NCBI GenBank assembly: GCA_016785955.1
Contig: JAEUWH010000113.1
Location: 62,001-126,000 of the forward strand
Reading direction: 5' to 3'
Origin: Pseudobdellovibrionaceae bacterium
GTDB taxonomy: Bacteria > Bdellovibrionota > Bdellovibrionia > Bdellovibrionales > Bdellovibrionaceae
Length of the DNA stretch: 64,000 nt
How positions within the stretch are numbered: the first letter of the stretch is position 1; every line of letters begins with the position of its first letter. A program made the position numbers and the translations under genes. Below the pieces are notes generated by a model. The model had not been told where the DNA came from, searched no databases, and was given only the letters and a program-made list of their open reading frames with translations. Shown here one piece after another: positions 15,238 to 18,973 of the stretch.

Positions 15238-17865
15238 ATGAAGATCTATTTTCGCCATAAAAATCAAATTGTCGCGGTACTCGAGCCACATATCAACAAA
15301 TCCTATACCGTTGGCCGCGGACTAAATTGTGACGTTCAAATTCCAGTCCCCACTGTTTCTCGTTTTCAAGGTGTTCTGTATTTTGAAGAAGGCCGTTGGC
15401 ATTTTCGTAATGAGGGTGGCTTAAAAAACAGCGTCACCACCCTAAGCGATTCCGTCAGCGTTGACCTTAAAACAGGCCTGTCCATCTCCTTAGATACATT
15501 TTTAGCCAGTGAAAAAACTCATATTCTAGAAGAAAAAAAAGAAAACTCATACAGCTACATCAAAGCCACTGCCTATACATTAATCATTTTTTTTATTGCG
15601 GGCATCGCCACATATTTTACGTTCTATTTTCAAGGAAAATTTGACTCGAAATCCCTAATGGGCTTTGCCGAGAATAAAATTTTAAAATTTGAATTGAAAG
15701 TCAAAAAAGATCTACTCGAAAAAATAAAAAAAGAGGCCGATCTAAAAGAGGAAGATTTCAAAGAAACGGTCGGATTCTGTACCGGTTTCTTAGTGGAAAA
15801 AAATATTTTACTCACCGCTCATCACTGCATCAGCCCACCGCCAGGTTTGTCGATCGAAAAAGATTTTATTCTGAAAACATACGACAATCGAGAAATCACA
15901 CCTAAACGAATTTTAGGTTTTGATTTTACCAAAGACTATGTTTTCTTGGAAATCGAAGGCTTTAACGATAATCCATTTTTTAAAATCACTGAAAAAACCG
16001 AAATTGGCCAAAAGGTATTCACAATTGGGAATGTTGCCGGAGAAGGCCTAGCCATCCGCGAAGGTATCATTTCGGGCGAAACAGAAGATCCCAATGACCC
16101 AAGCGTCAAGTATGTTCGCTTTTCAGCTGCAGCCAGCCCTGGAAATAGTGGTGGCCCTTTGCTGAACGAAAAAGGAGAAGTCGTCGCATTGGTTTCCAGG
16201 AAAAACATGGCCGAGAACTATAACATCGGTATTTCATATAATGATCTCAGAAATGGTTTTAATAACTTTGTCCTAAACAAAGAGCCAAAAGAAATTATTT
16301 TTGATTCAAAAACGTCCGATCTGAACTTTGGCGGAATCGAGTATTACCTATCCAAATCATTCCGTTTGCCATTAATCGAAAAACTAGATAACAAACCACA
16401 TCTTTTGGAAGTACTAAATAAATTCATCGTCAAAATTCAAGTACCCTTCAATTTTGACCAAGCCCACGAAATGTATTTTCAAAAATTTCATGAAGTCGCA
16501 AAAGAAAAAATCCTAGCGGTCAATCAAATGGTCCGCAAAGAAGATCTTCCGGGAACAGACTGGGAAACACAAGCAACAAAGGACTTACCTTACGTCATAC
16601 CTTCAACAACCAGTGATCCGCACCTAGTATTTAAATCTGTTAACGACAAACTGATTCCTAAATCAATCGGACTCATTGGAACCAGCGGACAGATGGGTTA
16701 TGAAATGACTTTGAATGACTGGAAAAAAGAAAAAGTCTATTTGTACAACGAGGGCTATATGGCCACTAAAGGCTCTCTTATTGAAGAGCGCTTTCAAGTT
16801 CCTAAAGAAGACAACTATCTTGTTTACTCTTCCGTAAAAGACTCAAAAGAGTCAATTGATATATCTAGATATTTTATTGCAAGTCCCGATTTTTCGATTG
16901 TCTATAACTACCATGAAAAGGACTTCAAAAAACGAGAAGCCAATACACTGAAAACAATGAAAGACGTGTTCATTGGACCAGAGGGCGCCATTGTTTCACT
17001 ACGTTATTTCCCATTTTTAAGACCAAAAGCAAAAGCCGATTTCAAAGTGAAGGACTTTCCATCGGGCATAAAAAAAGTGAAAACATACAAGGATCAAAAC
17101 AATCGCAGCTGGGAATATTACGTCGCTGACTTTTATGATTCCTTCTATATTGAGCTATTTTGCATGAACACCCTTACTGCGACTCATTGTTTGAGCACCT
17201 TTCAAGAAGGTTCTGTTGATCGCATGAAAGAAGAACTGGTCAAAAACTTTGTTAACTTTGAGCTTAATGAAAAGTATGCCATGATGGATTTCTTCATGTT
17301 ACCTTCTTTGCCGTCCACGGATCTTAGTCAATATATTGCCGAATCGTCTTACCTGAAAGGATTCGAACTGAATGAAACGAAAGATCATGTCAGTATTAAC
17401 CTCAAAGATTTTAACCAAACGTTGAAGTTAGGAAAAAAAGACTCAATTGTTGGTCTCAGATTTATCCCTGGCGTAGTATTTAACCAAACACTTGGTCGCG
17501 GTATCTGGAGTGGCTTTGGGGTACAATTTATTCGAAAAGATAAATTCAAAGGCGAAACAAAATATGAACTCTGCACGACCGGTATTCAATTCGAAGAACT
17601 GAAATACAATGCCATGTTAACGAAAGATCAAAACTTACAAAAATCATTCCGTGGACTCGCATCAGAATTGACCACAGACATCGGCAAAGGCTTTAAGAAC
17701 AAAATGGCCCAAAATAAAGATGCGGTTTGGAAAAAAGATTTGGGTAAGGATGAAAAGGAATGGAAAAAACAAGCTTACGGCACATGCCACACACTGTTTA
17801 AAGATACCGAAAAAACAGATTTGTACCGAACAGAATTTGAATTCACTCCGTTTAAAGCAGAATAA
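15238..17865 (+). CDS. FHA domain-transmembrane-trypsin-like serine protease fusion
   Basis: 875 residues; ATG preceded by GGGAGAAG. Residues 1-90 form an FHA domain (VGRGLNCDVQIP...TVSRFQ; G26, R27, S41, R42; the usual His after SR is absent), which would read phosphothreonine in the cytoplasm. A single transmembrane helix lies at about 111-131. Residues 175-340 are a trypsin/DegP-like protease with H196 (LTAHHC), D233 (TKDYVFLEI) and S304 (SPGNSGGPL), predicted periplasmic. The remaining ~530 residues match nothing I recognise, with a few Cys that could form disulfides. Cytoplasmic phosphosignal sensing linked to periplasmic proteolysis is inference. Divergent from efp. Confidence 0.85.
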   Translation: MKIYFRHKNQIVAVLEPHINKSYTVGRGLNCDVQIPVPTVSRFQGVLYFEEGRWHFRNEGGLKNSVTTLSDSVSVDLKTGLSISLDTFLASEKTHILEEKKENSYSYIKATAYTLIIFFIAGIATYFTFYFQGKFDSKSLMGFAENKILKFELKVKKDLLEKIKKEADLKEEDFKETVGFCTGFLVEKNILLTAHHCISPPPGLSIEKDFILKTYDNREITPKRILGFDFTKDYVFLEIEGFNDNPFFKITEKTEIGQKVFTIGNVAGEGLAIREGIISGETEDPNDPSVKYVRFSAAASPGNSGGPLLNEKGEVVALVSRKNMAENYNIGISYNDLRNGFNNFVLNKEPKEIIFDSKTSDLNFGGIEYYLSKSFRLPLIEKLDNKPHLLEVLNKFIVKIQVPFNFDQAHEMYFQKFHEVAKEKILAVNQMVRKEDLPGTDWETQATKDLPYVIPSTTSDPHLVFKSVNDKLIPKSIGLIGTSGQMGYEMTLNDWKKEKVYLYNEGYMATKGSLIEERFQVPKEDNYLVYSSVKDSKESIDISRYFIASPDFSIVYNYHEKDFKKREANTLKTMKDVFIGPEGAIVSLRYFPFLRPKAKADFKVKDFPSGIKKVKTYKDQNNRSWEYYVADFYDSFYIELFCMNTLTATHCLSTFQEGSVDRMKEELVKNFVNFELNEKYAMMDFFMLPSLPSTDLSQYIAESSYLKGFELNETKDHVSINLKDFNQTLKLGKKDSIVGLRFIPGVVFNQTLGRGIWSGFGVQFIRKDKFKGETKYELCTTGIQFEELKYNAMLTKDQNLQKSFRGLASELTTDIGKGFKNKMAQNKDAVWKKDLGKDEKEWKKQAYGTCHTLFKDTEKTDLYRTEFEFTPFKAE

Positions 17866-17886
17866 AAACCACCTCTCGAGGTGGTT
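17864..17886. terminator. Bidirectional hairpin between convergent genes
   Basis: AACCACCT-CTCG-AGGTGGTT at 17867-17886, eight perfect pairs. On the minus strand it continues as TTTTTATT, giving a rho-independent terminator for the exported toxin-like gene ending at 17956. On the plus strand the following TTCTCGG is weaker, so termination of the FHA-protease transcript is less sure. Confidence 0.65.
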
Positions 17887-17955
17887 CTCGGTGTCCATAA
17901 AATGTAGAAGTTCAGATCTGCTCTGACAGTCGCCCTGTTTTGATCAAAATTATTT

Positions 17956-18798
17956 TTAATATTCATGTAAAGAAATTTTAAAAACACTTATAATTTCTTT
18001 ACCATCTTGATTTTCGATTTTATAAAAAACTCGCCATCCATCACTAAGACGAAAAGACCTTGCACCTATGACCTTCTCGTAAGGTTCATCATGATAACCA
18101 GGAATTTTCCTAACTTCTAAAAGCCCTTGTTTCTTAACACTGTCTTTCCATTTATCAAAATTTTTTAAAACCGCTTTAGGGACTCTAAAATTTTTTATCA
18201 ATTTCGCAGCATCGTGTCCTATTTCAATAGTATCAATTAACTTTACAGACTTTACTACGGCTGCTGCTTTGACCATAGACTTAGCCACTTTTAGCTTGCC
18301 CGGTCCCACAATTCCAAAAAAGGCAGCACAAGCAACTTTAACAGTTTCATTTTGGTTTAACTCTCTAGATGCCAGTTTGGCTTTTTTTAAATTATCGAAT
18401 AAGGCTACTGGATCACCGGCTAAGGGAAACTCTGAAAAATCTGGCAAGCGTCTCCTGTAAAAACCTGAAAACCTAATTAACTCGCCCCATATATAAATAG
18501 CATTATCACTTTGCAATCTTGAAGCCGATTCTGCTGCTATTTCTGAATACTTATTTTTCAAAAACTGGATGCACTCTGTTTTTTTTTGACATTCGTGCAA
18601 GACAAAATCCTGTAAGCGCCATGTATCCATCAATGGATCTACTAACTCTTGCTCAGCACACTCATAGAACTTACTATTCTCAAAATAGTTTTTAAAATCT
18701 GGAATACCTTCCAAGTGTAAATGACTTTTTTTGCACTCTTGAGCGAAGCCTTGACCTAAAAAAAAAATACTAAATAATAGAAAACAAATTTCCTTCAC
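17956..18798 (-). CDS. Exported protein with C-terminal RelE/ParE-like toxin-fold domain
   Basis: 280 residues with a signal peptide cut near A19 (GQGFA/QE). The N-terminal half carries five Cys (C22, C47, C70, C76, C157) that could pair outside the cytoplasm; a Gly/Ala-rich amphipathic stretch spans 155-185. The last ~70 residues (GYHDEPY at 234-240, ARSFRLSDGWRVFYKI, ending ISLHEY) resemble RelE/ParE/HigB mRNA-interferase folds, which show 'HDhPLkG..RSiRl..yRaiY' and a terminal HxY. Type II toxins are normally cytoplasmic and paired with an antitoxin; no antitoxin or immunity gene adjoins this one. An effector delivered to another cell is possible but unproven. The fold call rests on pattern memory. 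Confidence 0.6.
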   Translation of the reverse strand: MKEICFLLFSIFFLGQGFAQECKKSHLHLEGIPDFKNYFENSKFYECAEQELVDPLMDTWRLQDFVLHECQKKTECIQFLKNKYSEIAAESASRLQSDNAIYIWGELIRFSGFYRRRLPDFSEFPLAGDPVALFDNLKKAKLASRELNQNETVKVACAAFFGIVGPGKLKVAKSMVKAAAVVKSVKLIDTIEIGHDAAKLIKNFRVPKAVLKNFDKWKDSVKKQGLLEVRKIPGYHDEPYEKVIGARSFRLSDGWRVFYKIENQDGKEIISVFKISLHEY

Positions 18799-18973
18799 TT
18801 GTTTAGTTTAGCATTTTCTAATTTTAAAACTGAAGAAAGAAATTTATAAATATTCCTGGATGAACGTTTGGGTTTTCTATTCAAATGAGGACAGTGTCAT
18901 TACCAGCCTGGTCTATTTCGATTACTGAATAGGCACTTTTAAGCCAACACGAATCACTCGATTGATGCAGCTC

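Follow-up and report, generated by a model that had tools for sequence, protein, structure and literature searches.

How could a bacterium keep a RelE-type toxin with no antitoxin beside it, and why would such a toxin carry an export signal? The question is raised by an open reading frame on the minus strand (17956..18798) of the window, the 64,000-nucleotide stretch of Pseudobdellovibrionaceae DNA that was analysed here. The frame encodes a 280-aa protein with a signal-peptide-like N-terminus, a cysteine-bearing N-domain and a RelE-fold C-domain. It begins with GTG, has no clear ribosome-binding site before this start and no in-frame ATG, GTG or TTG further upstream, and is present as a single copy in its own genome (4.3 Mb in 124 contigs, near complete). 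Using sequence comparison and structural modeling, we arrived at an evenly balanced judgement that the protein may be an exported mRNA-interferase effector of the RelE/HigB type, directed against other bacteria, with its export serving as self-protection.

The C-domain comprises approximately residues 188-280 (17956..18237, minus strand), as delimited by AlphaFold2 modeling, structure matches and residue conservation. The model, computed from nine sequences, places a strand, two helices and four further strands in these residues with a pLDDT of about 85-95. Its best matches in the PDB (Foldseek, VIA-align) are chains of RelE, YafQ, YoeB and HigB (Z of 8-11 over 78-89 residues, rmsd 2-3), headed by the RelE of M. 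jannaschii (Z 11.1, 80 residues, rmsd 2.0), while the nearest solved sequence by profile is 6f8s, a 'putative killer protein' (E 5e-4). The first-pass annotation had placed a RelE-like C-terminus at residues 207-280 and proposed its structural comparison to RelE and HigB. The comparison returned a RelE fold at those residues with the predicted active site intact, but the domain proved to be wider than the annotated extent.

We compared the C-domain to 31 stand-alone relatives and found that it keeps P207, W217, G225, K231, G234, H236, D237, E238, P239, R247, S248, R250, R256, Y259, H278 and Y280; the same residues recur in the comparison to relatives from viral contigs. It also preserves the active-site residues seen in its closest stand-alone relatives (K231, H236-D237, R247/R250, R256, Y259, H278 and Y280). 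Going by the active sites of YoeB, YafQ and HigB, its C-terminal H-x-Y and basic residues would point to an RNase. These residues, and the name of the family to which its relatives belong, make an mRNA interferase more likely than the other activity first considered for the C-domain, gyrase poisoning.

Three further matches to the C-domain are found in the same genome, covering only the last 75-95 residues and lying in stand-alone frames of about 95 aa. The closest paralogue (L002, contig C96) has 46% identity (E 4e-15) and scores above the cut-off of NCBIfam TIGR02385 (RelE/StbE mRNA interferase toxin). It is the toxin of a complete toxin–antitoxin pair (L002:1194-1776, minus strand), whose XRE-type antitoxin (L002:1194-1505) overlaps it downstream (HTH_3, E 2e-9; weak HigA similarity) and might cross-neutralize the exported RelE domain. 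The C-domain itself remains under the Pfam cut-off (PF05016, 13-15 bits versus 23) and has no match in the NCBIfam search, which the paralogue passes. Because these libraries apply a score test and not a structural one, homology to the RelE family is shown via the paralogue and the fold, and the two together confirm the predicted membership in the RelE/HigB toxin superfamily (BECR fold). A chance resemblance is unlikely, considering the E-values, the high confidence of the model and the independent recurrence of the architecture in a second protein.

The stand-alone toxins are widespread and paired. The C-domain has a match in 30 of 60 related genomes and is present in 180 of the 369 genomes of the phylum. 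With few exceptions, the stand-alone toxins at the loci we inspected are followed by an XRE antitoxin that starts about 10-30 bases before the toxin's stop codon, and seven IMG/VR viral contigs (L050-L056) likewise carry stand-alone toxins with XRE antitoxins, partly with short gaps.

Type II toxin–antitoxin systems are recognized by an adjoining or overlapping antitoxin gene, and the frame at 17956-18798 has neither. No antitoxin or immunity frame fits into the 90-bp gap that separates it from a convergent plus-strand gene (15238-17865; 875 aa), which encodes an N-terminal FHA domain, a hydrophobic segment, a trypsin-like domain and a long C-terminal part. A terminator-like hairpin (17864..17889, minus strand) follows the stop codon of the exported RelE gene and separates it from its convergent neighbor. 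Two other minus-strand frames of at least 60 aa (17775-17987 and 17662-17898) are the only ones close to the 3′ end; both overlap this terminator and the convergent gene, and we rejected them as credible genes. The earlier claim that the toxin domain has no antitoxin therefore held, in contrast to its paired stand-alone relatives. Upstream, on the same strand, a PAS histidine kinase gene lies 175 bp away. Polymorphic toxins aimed at kin need an immunity protein, while a toxin aimed at prey does not; because of this, the missing partner would fit a prey target.

Residues 1-20 (18739..18798, minus strand) look like a Sec signal peptide by inspection, which agrees with the signal peptide proposed at first pass. 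They contain one Lys, a short n-region and a hydrophobic core, with A-Q ahead of the mature chain. By hydropathy, residues 4-15 are the most hydrophobic 12-residue window of the protein and are followed by GFA-Q-EC, so that cleavage would probably occur near A19/Q20. A similar segment begins the one full-length relative that our searches found (L039:3888-4769).

The N-domain (residues 21-187, 18238..18738, minus strand) spans some 165 residues. The five N-terminal cysteines that had been noted for the protein are five of six in total (5, 22, 47, 70, 76 and 157): one lies inside the signal peptide and five lie in the mature chain. All five of the latter recur in the relative, with an identical spacing of 23-6-81 from C47 to C157, and this conserved pattern suits an oxidizing compartment, where the cysteines could form disulfides. 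Residues 153-167 are hydrophobic, with a basic stretch following in each of the two proteins; that this region helps in membrane passage is a guess. Residues 21-187 have no family match in Pfam, NCBIfam or PHROGs, and these libraries also recognized no known inner-membrane entry or pre-toxin domain anywhere in the 280-aa protein. An AlphaFold2 model of the N-domain alone, computed from two sequences, has a pLDDT of about 40 and is unusable for assigning a fold. Two faint resemblances, to a LydA holin (Pfam, E 0.12) and to IL1RAPL1 (PDB, E 0.27), were taken as chance.

An export signal, conserved cysteines and the absence of a recognized entry domain could also describe a protein that is retained in the periplasm, its RelE fold having taken on a harmless task, for example RNA binding, protein binding or the scavenging of RNA from lysed prey. 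RNA from digested prey would indeed be a nutrient. We nevertheless regard this explanation as unlikely, because all the residues that are invariant in the toxin–antitoxin-type relatives have been kept, including the C-terminal H-x-Y. Scavenging in particular is disfavored, as RelE-type enzymes (RelE, HigB, YoeB) usually need the ribosome.

The second carrier of the architecture is found in a Pseudobdellovibrionaceae MAG (L035:1204-2085, equivalent to L039:3888-4769), and its protein is identical to that of genome G095, a member of the same order as the genome analysed here. It has 34% identity overall to the 280-aa protein and combines an export-signal-like start, the same cysteine pattern and a RelE C-terminus. 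The N-domain is matched in G095 with an E-value of 6e-102 when the profile is built from both proteins and 1.6e-29 when the window protein is used alone. Adjoining the second exported RelE gene is a RelE–HTH pair of another toxin clade (L039:4859-5674, minus strand; also L035:299-1114), whose toxin frame no longer follows the conserved sequence beyond the HDEP motif and looks frame-broken or mis-assembled.

Both carriers lack the same residue after position 240 of the toxin domain. In a maximum-likelihood tree of the toxin domain, they are sisters (92/86) inside an antitoxin-paired clade that includes L002, a placing that counts as moderate evidence considering that both carrier branches are long. 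The data suggest that a toxin from a toxin–antitoxin pair was probably joined to the exported carrier once and was then retained for a long time with its active site kept. A contrasting possibility is that a toxin was fused by chance behind an exported protein and has been drifting without function. There are only two members, the gene's GC is low, and the toxin that adjoins the relative's gene itself looks frame-broken, all of which would suit such decay. Yet the full architecture, the cysteine spacing and all key toxin residues are kept in two copies at 34% identity, and drift that far would be expected to break the reading frame or the active site. Consequently, we consider a decaying accident highly improbable.

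The N-domain was searched for throughout the order, class and phylum (369 genomes), employing a profile (A2) of residues 20-205. Across the 369 genomes, it was found only in G000 and G095, both times in proteins ending in RelE, and a pattern-limited scan of GTDB contigs found it only in the same MAG sequence. Other matches, with E-values of 0.005-0.1, were set aside as fragments, several with stop codons; the one intact frame inspected, in G007, resembles an alpha/beta hydrolase by eye. Among the C-domain matches listed for the 369 genomes, long frames occur only in the two known carriers. The next-longest readable frames, in G319, G365, G080 and G352, and those in G006 and G021, were rejected as fusions, being stand-alone toxins with chance open frames upstream. 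The search for homologues with varied C-termini, which the first-pass annotation had proposed as a sign of polymorphic toxins, thus produced two carriers and a single kind of C-terminus.

This outcome bears on whether the protein is a classical polymorphic toxin used against kin, with its immunity partner encoded elsewhere, for example as the XRE antitoxin of the C96 pair. The same genome does encode a related toxin (46%) whose antitoxin is intact, and among polymorphic toxins a Sec-exported Tox-RelE domain has been described (PMC3482391). Set against this, no immunity gene adjoins the exported RelE gene, no alternative C-terminus was found on the N-domain in its two carriers, and the C96 pair is a complete toxin–antitoxin module of its own. 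A kin-directed role is accordingly very unlikely in our estimate.

Exported RelE-fold toxins have already been described, and the 280-aa protein varies this known theme. Relative to TIGR02385 toxins of the RelE_StbE/HigB type, which have HTH_3, HigA-like antitoxins (L002 among them, at the identity given above), it has the same C-domain fold and conserved residues. Those toxins are single-domain proteins with an overlapping downstream antitoxin, whereas the 280-aa protein has two domains, an export signal and no antitoxin. The Tox-RelE domain of polymorphic toxins is listed as exported by Sec and the T2SS, with Imm54 as its partner (PMC3482391); it is a RelE-fold nuclease at the C-terminus of exported proteins, a position that the predicted RelE-fold domain also takes in the 280-aa protein, whose sequence suggests export. 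Unlike those proteins, the 280-aa protein is small, has no repeats, releasing peptidase or recognized pre-toxin domain, and is accompanied by neither an immunity gene nor swapped C-termini among the carriers seen; directly downstream, where polymorphic toxins have their immunity gene, the convergent gene ends 90 bp away.

Two other protein types invite comparison. Txp40 of Xenorhabdus nematophila (PDB 7xbj) is also a larger toxin protein with a RelE-type fold in its C-terminal part, and its residues 207-366 align with residues 178-280 of our model (Z 9.1, Foldseek and VIA-align). The alignment, which concerns the C-terminal parts, is loose (rmsd 5.8, 16% identity), and Txp40 is insecticidal. 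The ToxM membrane toxins share a BECR-fold toxin combined with a membrane or periplasmic element (PMC11980606). Their layout is an N-terminal cytoplasmic BECR toxin, a transmembrane segment and a periplasmic domain, together with a cotranscribed ToxR antitoxin, while the 280-aa protein has the reversed order and no antitoxin. The source of the ToxM data, a survey of RelE/ParE proteins from 2025, excluded many multidomain proteins whose antitoxin was unidentifiable or whose family was too small (PMC11980606), and the type described here would fall outside it on both counts.

The following mechanism would account for these features. An mRNA interferase of the RelE/HigB type, derived from an XRE-paired toxin–antitoxin clade, would have been fused to the end of a disulfide-type carrier domain with an export signal. 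The protein would be exported by Sec in step with its synthesis, would fold in the periplasm while its N-domain forms disulfides, and would leave the producer, for example through a type II secretion system, or be released in the prey compartment. The C-terminal nuclease would then reach the cytoplasm of another bacterium and cut mRNA on its ribosomes, while the producer, having no antitoxin, would be guarded by export. The genome encodes a type II secretion GspD (secretin) that scores over the curated cut-off. In B. bacteriovorus, Sec signal peptides drive and suffice for secretion, and a fusion secreted through Sec has been observed in the bdelloplast (PMC12622784); Sec is also described as important for sending degradative enzymes into prey (PMC2797640). 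The first-pass annotation had read the protein as an effector delivered to another cell and kept harmless to its producer by export, and that interpretation gains partial support from the RelE fold with its intact predicted active site, the export signal retained in the distant relative, the missing antitoxin and the genes for exported proteins that the gene's slot holds in sister genomes. The weak point is the step from the target's periplasm to its cytoplasm, for which Pfam, NCBIfam and PHROGs revealed no entry domain.

More tentatively, we propose that a predator-type bacterium has converted the mRNA interferase of a toxin–antitoxin pair into a weapon against prey translation that is exported and needs no antitoxin, with a new cysteine-bearing domain for delivery and with the producer safe only via export. 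Bdellovibrio-like predators kill by means of enzymes put into their prey, a lifestyle that this producer may share. We found no report, in the literature searched, of an exported nuclease-type toxin of toxin–antitoxin origin in such predators. If the protein is delivered, the way in which a predator stops translation in its prey becomes directly testable, and so does protein crossing from the prey periplasm to the prey cytoplasm. It would further illustrate an evolutionary path on which export frees a toxin from its antitoxin.

We compared the gene's location (17866-18973, from the PAS histidine kinase to the FHA/trypsin-like gene) to the corresponding loci of sister genomes (L070, L071, L072 and L073) and found this slot to be variable in the genus. 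The exported RelE gene is absent from all five sister genomes. Three of these (G001, G004 and G005) keep both flanking genes at 75-85% identity with another gene in the slot. In G004 and G005 this gene encodes an exported alpha/beta hydrolase, whereas G001 has a GDSL-like lipoprotein there (a sub-threshold Pfam match), with export judged by eye in each case. The G004 slot also holds an insertion-sequence-like frame, recognized by sequence only. G003 has no gene in the slot and lacks the kinase, and in G002 the flanking genes lie apart. The gene's GC3 has a z-score of -4.0 versus 25 other genes of the window. Because the slot is variable and the GC3 is low, the gene looks horizontally acquired, as an accessory gene in a swap-prone slot that favors exported proteins.

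The slot's contents also bear on a last explanation, that the protein is a tripwire for export failure: a working Sec system would keep clearing the toxin from the cytoplasm, but when Sec is blocked by stress, phage attack or damage, the toxin would accumulate and arrest its own cell. An antitoxin-free toxin safeguarded by export alone could be expected to act in this way, and RelE-family toxin–antitoxin modules have been linked to defence (PMC11980606). The gene is rare and accessory, though, the unrelated exported hydrolases in the sister slots do not point to a stress sensor, and the conserved cysteine-bearing N-domain would be left unexplained. We therefore find a tripwire distinctly unlikely and retain the exported effector as our preferred explanation.

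An origin from a phage or plasmid was also considered and rejected. The phage records gave no match, the toxin on one Legionella plasmid is of the stand-alone kind, and the IMG/VR viral contigs, with their paired stand-alone toxins, have no N-domain. A functional link to the PAS histidine kinase was rejected as well, the kinase staying in four of the five sister genomes while its neighbor changes. On the other side of the slot, the FHA/trypsin-like gene is kept in all five sister genomes with 62-85% identity.
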